This document shows positions 91 through 4,811 of a stretch of 5,026 nt of DNA, piece after piece. Within the stretch, counting starts at the first letter, position 1. Every line of letters begins with the position of its first letter. Below the pieces are notes generated by a model, which saw only the letters and a list, made by a program, of their open reading frames with translations, ran no database searches and had not been told where the DNA came from. The translations under genes were made by a program, and so were the position numbers. The stretch is from a bacterium (GTDB lineage: Bacteria; BMS3Abin14): assembly GCA_029210545.1 (NCBI GenBank), contig JARGFV010000153.1, forward strand, positions 1 through 5,026, given 5' to 3'.

Positions 91-119
91 GGCGCCCCGC
101 GCGGGGCGCGTTGATGGAC
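79..119 (+). repeat. 41-bp element, copy A, with 18-bp GC palindrome
   Basis: Copy A contains the perfect palindrome GCGCCCCGCGCGGGGCGC at 92-109. Its reverse complement matches 242-282 at 37 of 41 positions. Weaker similarity continues outward to 137 (matching about 224-241 in copy B, with one gap). The two copies are head-to-head inverted and 122 nt apart, so a transcript across the region could fold into one long stem instead of separate local hairpins. Confidence 0.8.
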
Positions 120-329: not shown

Positions 330-1250
330 ATGAACCAGGAACAGCTCAAAGGGGAGATCAGGGGGCTCCTTGACGACCGGAAGGCCGTTCTCCTGGCCCA
401 CAACTACCAGAGGGACGAGATCCAGGAGATCGCCGGCCACACCGGTGATTCGCTGGGGCTCTCCCAGGTGGCGGCCGACTCGGACGCCGAGGTCATCGTC
501 TTCGCCGGGGTCCACTTCATGGCGGAATCGGCGGCCATCCTCGCGCCCGACCGGACGGTCCTCCTGCCTAACAGGAACGCCGGCTGTCCCATGGCCGACA
601 TGATCACCCCGGAGGGTGTGGCCGCCCTCAGGGAAAAGTACCCCGGGGGCACGGTGGTGGCCTATGTGAACACCTCCGCGGCGGTCAAGGCCGTGAGCGA
701 CATCTGCTGCACATCGGGCAACGCCGTCAACGTCGCCCGCTCCTTTCCCCCGGAAGCCGACCCCCTGATCATGGTCCCCGATCAGAACCTCGCCCGGTAT
801 ATCGCGGACAAGGTGGACAGAGAGGTCGTGTGGCACGACGGCTACTGCCCCATCCACCACCAGTACACGGCGGAAGATGTGCTGGCGGTCAAGGCGCTGC
901 ACCCCGGCGCCGTGTTCGCCGCCCACCCCGAGTGCCGCCCGGAGGTCCTCGCCCTCGCCGACCACATCACCAGCACCTCGGGAATGTACACCTTCGCCCG
1001 GGAGTCTGCGGCGAAGGAGATCATCATCGGCACGGAGCTTGGGGTCCTGTACCGCATGAGGAAGGAGAGCCCGGGGAAAACGTTCATCCCCCTTTCGAAG
1101 AACATGATCTGCCCCAACATGAAGCTGACCCGCCTCGAGGACATCAGGGACGCGCTGGTGAACATGGAGCCGGTGGTCACGGTTCCTGAGGATGTCCGTG
1201 TCAAGGCTAAGGAGGCACTCGACAGGATGCTGGCGGTCCCGAGGGATTGA
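330..1250 (+). CDS. nadA: Quinolinate synthase NadA
   Basis: This 306-residue protein condenses iminoaspartate (made by NadB or an aspartate dehydrogenase) with dihydroxyacetone phosphate to give quinolinate, the precursor of NAD, in the cytoplasm using an oxygen-sensitive 4Fe-4S cluster. The three cluster cysteines are C86 (NAGCPMAD), C173 (GYCPIHH) and C261 (MICPNMK), with the spacing of the short Thermotoga-type enzyme. Active-site residues known from that enzyme are all in register: H24 and Y26 (HNYQ), S41, Y112 and N114 (AYVNTSA), S129, H176, H199 and E201 (HPEC), T216. The length fits the short NadA class (about 300 residues) rather than the roughly 350-residue enterobacterial form. The ATG is preceded by AAAAGGA (316-322) with 7-nt spacing. 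No nadB or nadC is adjacent, and a terminator follows, so it is probably transcribed alone. Confidence 0.97.
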   Translation: MNQEQLKGEIRGLLDDRKAVLLAHNYQRDEIQEIAGHTGDSLGLSQVAADSDAEVIVFAGVHFMAESAAILAPDRTVLLPNRNAGCPMADMITPEGVAALREKYPGGTVVAYVNTSAAVKAVSDICCTSGNAVNVARSFPPEADPLIMVPDQNLARYIADKVDREVVWHDGYCPIHHQYTAEDVLAVKALHPGAVFAAHPECRPEVLALADHITSTSGMYTFARESAAKEIIIGTELGVLYRMRKESPGKTFIPLSKNMICPNMKLTRLEDIRDALVNMEPVVTVPEDVRVKAKEALDRMLAVPRD

Positions 1251-1419: not shown

Positions 1420-1448
1420 GGCGAATATCACTCTCCGTGATATTCGCC
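1420..1448 (-). repeat. Perfect 12-bp hairpin overlapping the moaC stop codon
   Basis: GGCGAATATCAC (1420-1431) and GTGATATTCGCC (1437-1448) are exactly complementary around a 5-nt loop. The inner arm encodes the last residues of MoaC (GEYH), the loop region holds the final codons, and the stop codon (1428-1430) is in the outer arm. No T run follows on the minus strand, so it is not a typical intrinsic terminator; it could protect the mRNA 3' end or help ribosome release or termination. Confidence 0.7.
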
Positions 1449-1904
1449 TGATTTCCCCCCGCTCTTATACACCAGCCTGATGTCGCTGATCCGAATCCCC
1501 TTCTCCAGGGATTTCAGCATGTCGTAGACTGTCAGGGCCGCCACGGACACCGCGGTGAGGGCTTCCATCTCCACGCCGGTCTTGCCGGTGGTGGTGGCGG
1601 TGGCCTCGACGCGGATACCGGGAAGGACCCTGTCAGGGGTCAGCTCAACCTTGAGGGAGTCAAGGCCGATGGGGTGGGTGAGGGGGATGAGGTCAGGGGT
1701 CCTTTTGCCGCCGGTGATGCCGGCGACGCGCGCGACTGCCAGAACGTCACCCTTGGGTACATCACCGTCCAGAACGGCCGCTAGGGTCTCAGGGGTCAGG
1801 AGGACATCGGCTTTTGCGACGGCAGTGCGGCGGGACGGGTTCTTGCCGCCGACGTCCACCATCCGGGCCCGCCCTTTTTCATCCAGGTGGGTCAGGTCGG
1901 ACAA
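1428..1904 (-). CDS. moaC: Cyclic pyranopterin monophosphate synthase MoaC
   Basis: MoaC converts the MoaA product 3',8-cyclo-dihydro-GTP to cyclic pyranopterin monophosphate, the first stable intermediate of molybdenum cofactor synthesis, in the cytoplasm as a hexamer. The 158-residue protein has the family's usual length and motifs: LTHLDEKGRARMVDV (4-18), KGDVLAVARVAGITGGKRT (51-69), LIPLTHP (72-78), TGVEMEALTAVSVAALTVYD (109-128) and the C-terminal KSGGKSG (147-153). Catalytic-site residues K51, K67, H77, E112, D128 and K131 sit at the same numbers as in the E. coli protein. The common LIPLCHP motif here has Thr76 for Cys. The start is TTG, chosen because it aligns exactly with the E. coli N-terminus (MSQLTHI) and no ATG or GTG lies nearby in frame. 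GAGG (1917-1914) sits 9 nt upstream, inside the end of the pilZ gene. The 4-nt gap to pilZ implies translational coupling. No other moa/mob genes are nearby. Confidence 0.96.
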   Translation of the reverse strand: MSDLTHLDEKGRARMVDVGGKNPSRRTAVAKADVLLTPETLAAVLDGDVPKGDVLAVARVAGITGGKRTPDLIPLTHPIGLDSLKVELTPDRVLPGIRVEATATTTGKTGVEMEALTAVSVAALTVYDMLKSLEKGIRISDIRLVYKSGGKSGEYHGE

Positions 1905-1908
1905 GAGG

Positions 1909-2253
1909 TCATCCCTCGTCCCCGGCCAGGAAATCGGTTATCACCGCGGCGTTCTCTTTGGAGATCTTCCTGAAGGCGATGCCGAGCCCGATGTGGCCGC
2001 TTTCCAGTTTCCTCTGGTGCACGATCTCTCCCGTGGTCTGAATGACGTGCTCGCGGATGCCCAGGGTGACCTCCACCATGCGGTTTTCTGAAGGCAGAGG
2101 CTGGTGGATCTCGAGCAGGATGCCGCCCTCCGACAGGTCAAGGGTTCGTCCCACGACCTCCAGGTCCACCTGGCCCTTGTCGTCCCTGTGTGAGAGGGAG
2201 ACCAGGTTGAGGGACTCGAGACGCTTGTGTCGGGACTTGGAACCTTGGCTCAC
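1909..2253 (-). CDS. Small PilZ-domain protein (putative c-di-GMP binding)
   Basis: With the GTG start at 2253 this is a 114-residue protein made almost entirely of one PilZ domain, a fold that typically binds cyclic di-GMP and acts on motility, exopolysaccharide or secretion. Seen in sequence: a basic N-terminal RHKRLES (8-14) in the position of the RxxxR motif, then a beta-rich region with VGRTLDLSEGGILLE (34-48) carrying the D/NxSxxG motif (D39, S41, G44), and a typical HIGLGIAF strand near residues 87-94. If R11 is the second arginine of RxxxR, the first position is Ser7, so the motif is degenerate and ligand affinity could be reduced; R8 might substitute. No signal peptide or membrane segment is seen. 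The gene is first in a pair with moaC; a functional link between c-di-GMP and molybdopterin is not established, and shared transcription may be incidental. Confidence 0.85.
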   Translation of the reverse strand: MSQGSKSRHKRLESLNLVSLSHRDDKGQVDLEVVGRTLDLSEGGILLEIHQPLPSENRMVEVTLGIREHVIQTTGEIVHQRKLESGHIGLGIAFRKISKENAAVITDFLAGDEG

Positions 2254-2266
2254 TGATCTCCTCCTT
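2251..2266 (-). promoter_or_regulatory. Strong ribosome binding site fixing the pilZ GTG start
   Basis: On the minus strand AAGGAGG (2266-2260) stands 6 nt before GTG (2253-2251), close to ideal. The longer frame starting at ATG 2307 would add 18 residues (rich in Arg, Pro and His, without domain similarity) and has no Shine-Dalgarno sequence upstream, so the GTG start is preferred. Confidence 0.85.
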
Positions 2267-2316
2267 GGGCGGGGGAAATGCCTCCGTGGGGTGTCAAAAC
2301 AGCCCATGCTTCAAGG

Positions 2317-2379: not shown

Positions 2380-2408
2380 TTGACTTTGAAGGGTCGATTG
2401 GCTATATT
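2380..2408 (+). promoter_or_regulatory. Strong sigma-70-like promoter for yjbQ
   Basis: TTGACT (2380-2385) and TATATT (2403-2408) each match five of six consensus bases and are separated by the ideal 17 nt. Transcription would begin near 2415, giving a short leader of about 25 nt before the yjbQ ATG, too short for a riboswitch. It is the best promoter match in the window. Confidence 0.75.
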
Positions 2409-2439
2409 CAACGGGTTTCGAAATATGCTAAGGAGGGGC

Positions 2440-2865
2440 ATGCAGACGGTGGTTAAACTCTCCACCAGGCGCCGTGAGGAACTGGTGGATATCACGTCAC
2501 AGGTCGAAGATGCCATCCGCTCTTCCGGGGTCTCGACCGGCGTCTGCGTTCTGTACTGTCCCCACACGACATCAGCGCTGACCATTAACGAGGGAGCGGA
2601 TCCGGCGGTGGCCGCGGATCTCGTCTCCGGCCTGCGCCGATTGGTCCCCGAGGGGTGGGATTTTTCCCACGCGGAGGGGAATTCCGACGCCCACCTCAAG
2701 GCAAGCCTGTTCGGGGCATCGGAGACGATCCTCATCGAGGACGGCCGCCCGATGCTCGGGACCTGGCAGCGGATCTTTTACTGCGAGTTCGACGGGCCGA
2801 GACACCGCACATTTTACGTCAGGATCGAGGACCAGGGGGGACAGCCAGGGATGAAAACCGGATGA
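2440..2865 (+). CDS. yjbQ: YjbQ / UPF0047 family protein
   Basis: This 141-residue protein belongs to the YjbQ/UPF0047 (TIGR00149-type) family, small trimeric cytoplasmic proteins for which a weak thiamine-phosphate-synthase activity has been reported but whose true role is unsettled. Signature motifs are present: LSTRRREELVDIT (7-19), CPHTTSALTINEGADP (40-55), HAEGNSDAHLKASLFG (77-92) and LGTWQRIFYCEFDGPRHR (106-123). The conserved H42, H77, H85 and E116-D118 cluster is intact, consistent with the family's metal or phosphate pocket. The ATG at 2440 is chosen because it aligns with the usual family N-terminus and follows AAGGAGG (2430-2436), although only 3 nt separate them; the GTG at 2449 is a less likely alternative. 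The C-terminal 10 residues (DQGGQPGMKT) extend past the domain. The stop overlaps the next start as ATGA, so the two genes are co-transcribed and probably translationally coupled. Confidence 0.93.
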   Translation: MQTVVKLSTRRREELVDITSQVEDAIRSSGVSTGVCVLYCPHTTSALTINEGADPAVAADLVSGLRRLVPEGWDFSHAEGNSDAHLKASLFGASETILIEDGRPMLGTWQRIFYCEFDGPRHRTFYVRIEDQGGQPGMKTG

Positions 2866-4811
2866 GCGACGCGACGCTTCTTGAAGGCTACCGTGAATGC
2901 CATTCCTGCGCCATCCCGGACAAGATGGTGGCCAGGCGCTGCTTCCATTGCCTGGGCCGCCTCGACCTCAAGGATCTGCTGCTTCTGGAGGGTCAGAAGC
3001 GCTTGCGGCGCAAGCGGGCGCCCATCCTGTCGGCGGTCTTCCCCGGCCTCGGGCACTGGTACTCGGGCCGCCGCTATATCGGCACATACTTTTTCGCTAT
3101 GGCTCCGCTCAGTATCGGCCTGGTCCTGGCCACCTACCAGAAGTGGAACTGGGGCCTTTCCGTCCTCACCCTGTCCTTCGTCCTGGTCTGGTTCCTGGCC
3201 ATCATCGACTCCAGGAAAGGTCCCCACTATTTTCATCCCCCGTGCCAGGAAACGTGTCCCGGCAGCGTGCCCTGCTCCCAGTACGTCCACCTCGCCGCCG
3301 CGGGCAAGGTCAGGGAGTCCCTGGAACTGGTCGAGGCTGTCTGTCCTTTCCCGGGCACCATCGGGCGGATCTGTCACCATCCGTGTGAGCAGAACTGCAA
3401 CCGCGGCAAGGACGGCGACCCTGTCGCCATCTGTGCCCTGAAACGCTACATCGACGACCGGACTGAACGTCCCTACAACTTTTACCAGAGGGAGATCGCC
3501 AAGAGCGGCGTCCGGGTGGGCAAGAAGGTGGCGGTGGTCGGGTCCGGACCGTCGGGCCTGAGCGCGGCCCTTTACCTGAGGCTGTTCGGGTTCGAGGTCT
3601 CTGTCTTCGAGGCAAGGGAGTTCGCCGGGGGTACGCCTGCCATCTACGCGCCCGAATACCGCCTGCCCCGGGAGATCTACCGCAGGGAGGTCGACCGGAT
3701 CCTGGAGCTGGACATCGACTTCAAATTCGGCCGGCGGCTGGGTAAGGATTTCACCCTCCAGGACCTGGAAAAGGACGGTTACTCGGCTGTCTACCTGGGG
3801 CTCGGCGCCATGAGGTCCGTGCGCCTCCCCCACACCGGTGAAAAATCGGAAGGTTTCATCGACGGCAGGGAGTTCCTCGAGCAGGTGGTCATCGGCGACG
3901 GGATGAAGCTTCCCGGGGATGTCCTCGTCATCGGCGGAGGCAACGTCGCCATGGACGTGGCCCGCTCGGCCCTCCGGTGCGGTGCCGACAATGTCAGGCT
4001 CATCTGCCTGGAGAAAAAGCCGAAACCGCCGGAGAGAAAGTTCCATTACAAGGATAACGGGTGGAAGGAGATCCTCTCCCCTGTCACCGGTGAGTTCATG
4101 CCGGCCCACCGGTGGGAGATCGCCGAAGCGGTCGCTGAAGGGGTCGAGATCCTGGATGCCGGGGCCACCGTCACTTTCCAGCGTGAGAACGGGAAAGTGG
4201 CCGGCGCTCGATGCCTTCAGGTCGAAAGGATCGACAAGGACCCCAACGGCAGGCTGGTCCCGGTCTTCAGGGACGGTTCCGATTTCACCGTCAGGGCGGA
4301 CTGGGTGATCACCGCGGTGGGGTCGGCCCCGGACTTCTCCTTCCTCGGCGGCGTGCCGGCGAAAAAGCGGTTTGACCTCAAGGCGCCCCTCGTCCAGCTG
4401 GAGATCCCGGAGGTATCCGTACCGGTCCTCGCCGGGGGAGACCTGGCGATCGGTCCCGCGTCGGTCATCGAGGGGATAGCGGCGGGGAAAGAAGCGGCTG
4501 TCCACCTCTACCTGACCCTGGTGGGCGCCACTCCGGTGAACATCCGGTACCGGCCGCGCCGCCTGATTGAGCCCTGGGCGAACTACCCGGACAGCCTGGA
4601 CCGCCGCCGGCGGCGGCAGGAGGTCATGCTGGACATGGAATCCCGCCGCTCGACCTTTACCGAGGTGGACCGCGGGTTCACCGAGGCCACCGGCCATGAA
4701 GAGGCCGAACGCTGCACCCGCTGCGACTGGCCGCTGATGAGGGAGAGCAAGGTGAAGAAGTTTTTCCGGGCCGTAAAGAGAGTGGGCCCCGAAAAAACTT
4801 CCAGTGTTTGA
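2862..4811 (+). CDS. Membrane-anchored GltD-like FAD/4Fe-4S NAD(P)H oxidoreductase
   Basis: This 649-residue protein has four parts. Residues 13-30 form a two-CxxC zinc-ribbon-like knuckle (C13, C16, C27, C30). After a basic stretch (KRLRRKR, 46-52) comes a TM2-like motif SAVFPGLGHWYSG (57-69) and hydrophobic segments at about 74-92 and 97-116. Residues 125-200 resemble the Fe-S domain of GltD, NfnB and dihydropyrimidine dehydrogenase, with C128, C132, C138, C161, C171, C175, C179 and C191. The rest is a GltD-type flavoprotein: FAD Rossmann GSGPSG (227-232) with E250, EYRLPRE (265-271), a second NAD(P)H Rossmann GGGNVAMD (358-365), AVGSAPD (485-491) and FAD-closing AGGDLAIGPASVIEGIAAG (524-542). 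A lone CTRC (618-621) lies near the C-terminus. Two membrane segments and a basic N-terminal side would leave the catalytic module in the cytoplasm. It probably moves electrons from or to NAD(P)H; substrate and partner are unknown. The start is the ATG in the ATGA overlap with yjbQ; upstream frame extension is yjbQ shadow. Confidence 0.9.
   Translation: MSDATLLEGYRECHSCAIPDKMVARRCFHCLGRLDLKDLLLLEGQKRLRRKRAPILSAVFPGLGHWYSGRRYIGTYFFAMAPLSIGLVLATYQKWNWGLSVLTLSFVLVWFLAIIDSRKGPHYFHPPCQETCPGSVPCSQYVHLAAAGKVRESLELVEAVCPFPGTIGRICHHPCEQNCNRGKDGDPVAICALKRYIDDRTERPYNFYQREIAKSGVRVGKKVAVVGSGPSGLSAALYLRLFGFEVSVFEAREFAGGTPAIYAPEYRLPREIYRREVDRILELDIDFKFGRRLGKDFTLQDLEKDGYSAVYLGLGAMRSVRLPHTGEKSEGFIDGREFLEQVVIGDGMKLPGDVLVIGGGNVAMDVARSALRCGADNVRLICLEKKPKPPERKFHYKDNGWKEILSPVTGEFMPAHRWEIAEAVAEGVEILDAGATVTFQRENGKVAGARCLQVERIDKDPNGRLVPVFRDGSDFTVRADWVITAVGSAPDFSFLGGVPAKKRFDLKAPLVQLEIPEVSVPVLAGGDLAIGPASVIEGIAAGKEAAVHLYLTLVGATPVNIRYRPRRLIEPWANYPDSLDRRRRRQEVMLDMESRRSTFTEVDRGFTEATGHEEAERCTRCDWPLMRESKVKKFFRAVKRVGPEKTSSV

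Follow-up and report, generated by a model that had tools for sequence, protein, structure and literature searches.

A predicted membrane hairpin fused in frame to a StnC-type NAD(P)H flavoprotein in three bacterial lineages

The window analyzed here (5,026 nucleotides) is the whole of contig C153 in a draft bacterial genome of 2.72 Mb that is 97% complete. It contains nadA, moaC, a gene for a PilZ protein, yjbQ, and a gene for a fusion protein in which a zinc-ribbon-like head and a predicted membrane hairpin precede a flavoprotein (Table 1). The ATG of the fusion gene shares bases with the stop codon of yjbQ (ATGA overlap), and yjbQ is the upstream neighbor of the fusion in several relatives as well. 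An open frame of 627 amino acids on the opposite strand looks like a shadow of the GC-rich fusion gene. The region upstream of nadA is AT-richer and contains two copies (window positions 91–111 and 252–270) of a GC-rich palindromic stretch, gcgccccgcgcggggcgc.

Table 1. Genes of the window and features of the fusion protein. Residue numbers refer to the fusion protein.
Feature	Position	Strand	Residues and remarks	Basis
nadA	330-1250	+		
moaC	1428-1904	-		
PilZ protein	1909-2307	-		
yjbQ (UPF0047/TIGR00149)	2380..2865	+	Upstream of the fusion gene and translationally overlapping it	Family-model scan
Fusion CDS	2862..4811	+	649 amino acids, without internal stop	ORF translation
Zinc-ribbon-like head	2898..2951	+	13–30; C13xxC16-x10-C27xxC30	Exact motif in translation
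PGLGHWYSG motif	3042..3068	+	61–69	DUF5683/DUF6677-like hairpin signature
Predicted membrane segment 1	3078..3134	+	73–91	Hydropathy scan
Predicted membrane segment 2	3150..3206	+	97–115	Hydropathy scan
Fer4_20 [4Fe-4S] domain	3234..3464	+	C128, C132, C171, C175, C179, C138, K194; without first CxxC	Profile match, positions 29–108
FAD and NAD(P) double Rossmann domain	3522..4511	+		Pfam, alignment
C-terminal stretch resembling first part of Fer4_20	4647..4739	+	C618xxC621	Profile match, positions 2–32

The original prediction described one continuous frame in which a CxxC-x10-CxxC head, a PGLGHWYSG motif, and two membrane segments precede an Fe-S domain, and both the translation and a hydropathy scan with a 19-residue window agree with this description. 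The scan found one further hydrophobic segment above threshold, located inside the flavin domain. The cysteines C13, C16, C27, and C30 are invariant in ten members of the window's family and are also kept in two genomes of another phylum-level group (G158 and G296). By these four conserved, predicted metal-ligand cysteines, the head of the window protein qualifies as a zinc ribbon. The hairpin had been called a TM2-like anchor. We reject membership in TM2, as the Pfam TM2 model (PF05154) had no match to the window protein up to a limit of E 10; the hairpin instead resembles DUF5683 and DUF6677, both of which match below threshold. Basic stretches occur at both ends of the hairpin (KRLRRKR before and DSRKG after). 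Since a hairpin of two helices leaves both of these arginine- and lysine-rich flanks on one side, the positive-inside rule would place the zinc ribbon and the flavoprotein probably both on the cytoplasmic side. Hydropathy, domain content, and flanking charges support the proposal that this is a membrane-attached electron-transfer flavoprotein for NAD(P)H, with an inner-face location being probable.

The flavoprotein half contains a Fer4_20 domain (residues 125–201, E 6e-18, 65.1 bits against a cut-off of 25.8) and a Pyr_redox_2 domain (residues 221–387, E 3.4e-16, 60 bits against a cut-off of 26.1), and the Pfam scan of the window protein found no domain beyond these two. The two matches bear out the domain content implied by the earlier GltD-type label, but the closest solved relatives of this half are 9bov, 9n5u, and 8oh5 (StnC), which are of the StnC type and not GltD, NfnB, or dihydropyrimidine dehydrogenase (DPD). 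All of the NCBIfam models (NF009410, TIGR01316, TIGR01318, and others) scored below cut-off, the best being NF009410 with 345.7 bits against 516. The canonical N-terminal CxxC-x4-C-x3-C of Fer4_20 was not found in the window protein, in which the profile match begins at position 29. By sequence, the protein would not be classed as GltD or NfnB proper, and its flavoprotein is best matched to the StnC type.

The first CxxC of the Fer4_20 domain lies at the C-terminus instead. The C-terminal stretch EAxRCxRC aligns with the Fer4_20 profile starting at position 2 or 3, with E 0.0024 in the window protein and 4–5e-4 in four relatives, so the domain is circularly permuted. Several soluble multi-domain relatives are likewise permuted, and their module ends in EAxRCLRC. 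Every aligned fusion, also in the Desulfurobacteriaceae, retains the same seven cluster cysteines. Two of these come from the C-terminus, where the C618xxC621 pair is kept throughout. In an alignment to 8oh5, C138, K194, and R267 of the window protein fall on C114, K170, and R239 of StnC. The three residues are present in nine of nine zinc-ribbon-type fusions in alignment A5, while its two Desulfurobacteriaceae rows have I or V at C138, H at K194, and K at R267. In DPD, the fourth ligand of the proximal cluster is glutamate or glutamine rather than lysine. The same is true of NfnB, whereas in StnC it is K170, or C114 in another state, that is found at the FAD-proximal [4Fe-4S] cluster (PMC10482914). 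Most activity of StnC is lost in K170A/C variants and half in C114A, and R239 variants have low activity (PMC10482914).

StnC belongs to the Sporomusa-type transhydrogenase StnABC (8oh5; PMC10482914) and shares with the window protein the GltD-like NAD(P)H/FAD module and two [4Fe-4S] clusters. However, StnC is 1172 amino acids in length, carries NuoG/FdhF-like domains, and acts together with StnA and StnB. The window protein has none of these, and a zinc ribbon and membrane hairpin stand in place of the extra domains. Similarly, NfnA of 9n5u (963 amino acids) and the 'molybdopterin oxidoreductase' 9bov (1178 amino acids) resemble the window protein over residues 93–634, including the C-terminal EAxRCxxC, but are large multi-domain proteins in which the zinc ribbon and hairpin are unmatched. 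GltD, NfnB, and DPD have the same motifs and the same order of Fer4_20 followed by the FAD/NAD(P) domain, but are soluble, and their first CxxC is N-terminal, whereas that of the window protein is C-terminal. The PGxGHxYxG-type two-helix hairpin itself is shared with DUF5683/DUF6677 proteins and with TPR proteins, often with a CxxC/CxxC ribbon before it, but in these no redox enzyme is attached. TPR-type membrane proteins of many bacterial families have such a ribbon and a PGxGHxYxGR-like hairpin at their C-terminus (for example L070, L071, L072, L075, L076, L080, L081, and L082, seen in the C-terminal regions of frames of 620–860 amino acids).

The original prediction had considered that homologs might lack the N-terminus. 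A search with the N-terminal 128 residues alone in 12 genomes of the window's family found this part fused in frame to the flavoprotein in ten, with 54–82% identity to the other members. The ten include single-contig genomes (CP070682, CP070698, and CP070719); of the two without the fusion, one is 71% complete and the other is in 660 contigs. In codon comparisons, dS was far above dN in all three parts (zinc ribbon, hairpin, and flavoprotein). For the two closest g4 relatives, the hairpin had a dN of 0.07 against a dS of 1.4–1.7, and was the least changed part, the flavoprotein having a dN of 0.23–0.25. These values indicate that strong purifying selection acts before and after the join. We reject the reading that an assembly or frameshift artefact joined two genes, and give it a negligible probability, since the join is shared by ten genomes, single-contig ones among them, and selection acts on either side of it.

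The hairpin region is well conserved among the ten family members, with 23 invariant positions in residues 40–124. Block 53–76, which contains PGLGHWYSGRR, has a mean pairwise identity of 0.78, compared with 0.80 for the NAD(P)-binding motif; over its full length the hairpin reaches 0.67, no higher than the flavoprotein taken as a whole. Because conservation of the PGLGHWYSGRR block nearly equals that of the NAD(P) site, the block suggests a specific surface, more than a passive greasy anchor. The zinc ribbon and hairpin also appear to form a reusable module, since the weak matches of the N-terminal profile that were inspected are stand-alone hairpins or hairpins that end TPR proteins. We did not accept PGLGHWY as a quinone-site motif, as it is also carried by non-redox TPR proteins.

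We searched with the N-terminal profile in 386 genomes sampled around the window, the majority of them from distant families, and again in 385 genomes around G158, a set that largely overlaps the first. In these sets, true fusions occur in three lineages only. The first is the window's family (ten genomes, with zinc ribbon), and the second consists of G158 and G296, both genomes of their phylum-level group, with the same zinc ribbon. The third is the Desulfurobacteriaceae (18 species), in which the zinc ribbon is absent and the hairpin is joined directly to Fer4_20; carriers include Desulfurobacterium thermolithotrophum (G021; PMC3368423) and Thermovibrio ammonificans (G516; PMC3570795). A tree computed from the flavoprotein part unites the window's family with G158/G296 in one fully supported clade. 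The tree separates the Desulfurobacteriaceae fusion from this zinc-ribbon clade, with a single clade not being rejected (p-AU 0.17). No match covering 80% of the fusion protein was found in a plasmid collection. We regard the fusion as real because the same design has been kept in three separate bacterial lineages.

Gene neighborhoods were compared from rough open-frame calls, with family-model scans covering the window genes and the tested MqnE-type proteins only. As the original prediction had it, the window supplies no partner, and neither do the neighborhoods of the window's family contain a conserved adjacent redox partner; the neighbors are housekeeping genes, with none that is stnA- or stnB-like. 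No single partner gene is adjacent to the fusion across all three lineages, and no recognizable sulfur-metabolism gene is linked to it in any of them. In the Desulfurobacteriaceae, an MntR/DtxR-type regulator follows the fusion in 13 of the 14 neighborhoods examined, and two MqnE-type genes come after the regulator in 12 of those 13 (two small genes intervene in one case). All four MqnE-type proteins tested, from two pairs, pass the TIGR03700 MqnE equivalog cut-off. In D. thermolithotrophum, the fusion adjoins a metH-like gene, and the two MqnE-type genes are elsewhere in the genome. Among the seven genomes of the window's family searched for the MqnE family, strong homologs were found only in G000, and these are below cut-off. 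Tandem MqnE (aminofutalosine synthase)-type genes behind an MntR/DtxR-type regulator are seen at L130–L141 (e.g., L131:11248-13487). A divergent ADP-ribosylglycohydrolase-like gene lies upstream of the Desulfurobacteriaceae fusion.

Other redox enzymes accompany the fusion. A complex I 49-kDa family protein was present in all eleven genomes checked, making it unlikely that the fusion replaces complex I or is the sole entry point for NADH. The window's genome also encodes, on another contig, a separate canonical GltD/NfnB-type protein of 484 amino acids, as well as a NuoF-GltD type protein; we thus rejected the possibility that the fusion is the only GltD/NfnB of this genome. With these proteins and complex I already present, the fusion is one more electron-transfer enzyme. 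Downstream of the fusion in the complete genome G001, at ~6–25 kb, lie a Rex-like gene, multiheme cytochromes, a cytochrome b, and complex I. By rough gene calls, the segment that separates the fusion from the complex I genes (L155:1-6478) encodes multiheme c-type cytochromes with 9–11 CxxCH each by machine count, a short Rieske-like protein, and one resembling cytochrome b. The window's family has another unusual GltD fusion (L004; contig C23, 8509-12393; ~1030–1080 amino acids), in which a permuted StnC/GltD-type module comes after a NuoF-like sequence. Of its relatives, the one at ~213000-216100 of G001:C1 adjoins the complex I genes.

We propose that the window protein is a membrane-tethered NAD(P)H oxidoreductase that exchanges electrons, in either direction, with the menaquinone pool. 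That it is a membrane-tethered oxidoreductase of the StnC type is very probable; the whole statement, menaquinone included, we put slightly short of an even chance. The electron-entry module would be StnC-type, GltD-like, and non-bifurcating. In the electron path we infer, NAD(P)H would reduce FAD, which would pass electrons to a proximal [4Fe-4S] cluster (probably bound by C618, C621, and C128 together with K194/C138) and from there to a distal [4Fe-4S] cluster (C132, C171, C175, and C179). This putative ligand assignment draws on the alignments together with what is generally known about NfnB and DPD; an AlphaFold2 model of the fusion made with seven sequences had a mean pLDDT of 47.9, too poor for cluster geometry. 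The hairpin would keep both clusters at the cytoplasmic surface of the membrane, letting them trade electrons with a membrane acceptor, for which the menaquinone pool is the likeliest candidate. ETF:quinone oxidoreductase, also a flavoprotein, has a [4Fe-4S] cluster that encounters quinone at the surface of the membrane. Its fold and electron donor differ from those of the window protein, and it serves as an analogy only.

Menaquinone is the leading guess for the acceptor because most Desulfurobacteriaceae neighborhoods have the order fusion, MntR, two MqnE-type menaquinone synthases, which lends the link indirect support. The multiheme cytochromes, cytochrome b, and complex I found ~8–25 kb from the fusion in G001 also speak for it. 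Speaking against this role are the lack of a conserved redox partner adjoining the gene in the window's own family, the unlinked MqnE-type genes of D. thermolithotrophum, and the restriction of strong MqnE homologs to one of the seven family genomes searched. A simple NADH:quinone role would in addition be partly redundant, given complex I in every genome checked. The further proposal that zinc-ribbon/hairpin, membrane-integrated StnC-type flavoproteins form a new class of single-polypeptide NAD(P)H:menaquinone oxidoreductases, found in three lineages and tied to menaquinone biosynthesis in the Desulfurobacteriaceae, is possible, but we hold it to be doubtful.

The protein might instead be a subunit of a larger enzyme, its StnC-type module passing NAD(P)H electrons to a membrane partner encoded elsewhere (cytochrome b, a multiheme cytochrome, or another redox complex) and its zinc ribbon and hairpin serving as a docking surface. 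The high conservation of the zinc-ribbon/hairpin block within the clade fits such a surface, and solved StnC-type relatives act in multi-subunit complexes (PMC10482914). The Rex, multiheme cytochrome, cytochrome b, and complex I genes within ~25 kb of the fusion in G001 are also in keeping with a subunit role. However, no single adjoining partner is seen across the family or the three lineages, and we consider this reading conceivable but rather unlikely.

A distinctly less probable reading is that of an NsoC-like, membrane-associated enzyme that would use NAD(P)H to reduce sulfur or polysulfide, with the hairpin placing it near sulfur that enters at the membrane. NsoC, an NADPH-dependent sulfur oxidoreductase, is among the closest homologs of StnC (PMC10482914), and both Desulfurobacterium and Thermovibrio reduce sulfur (PMC3368423, PMC3570795). 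Yet it is the sulfur-reducing family that differs at the cluster residues (H for K194 and I/V for C138), and a linked sulfur-metabolism gene is missing from all three lineages. We give slightly less weight still to an ordinary NAD(P)H reductase for soluble acceptors, in which the zinc ribbon and hairpin would be a generic localization module with no redox role. The occurrence of such ribbons and hairpins on unrelated TPR-type proteins in many families would agree with a generic module, as would the Desulfurobacteriaceae fusions that do without the ribbon, but a hairpin about as conserved as the catalytic parts, and maintained together with the flavoprotein in three lineages, argues for more than localization.

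The preferred reading, a membrane-tethered StnC-type oxidoreductase, bears on how anaerobes connect their NAD(P)H pool to the membrane. GltD/StnC-type modules are central to the electron trade of anaerobes among NADH, NADPH, and ferredoxin. Those of solved structure are soluble, and a version built into the membrane would add a link between the NAD(P)H pool and the membrane. We found no description of the zinc-ribbon/hairpin-flavoprotein architecture in the open-access literature; the fusion appears to be an undescribed variant and may be an undescribed connection from NAD(P)H to a membrane partner. The gene is close to core in the two uncultured lineages as well as in the Desulfurobacteriaceae, which are cultured, and the idea is directly testable because homologs exist in cultured type strains (D. 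thermolithotrophum and T. ammonificans).

The window protein has an insert of 24 amino acids (residues 385–408, window positions 4014-4085) just after the NAD(P)-binding strand. The insert occurs in ten of ten family members and not in G158 or G296, and is found only in the window's family. E384, the acidic residue before the insert, could favor NADH over NADPH.
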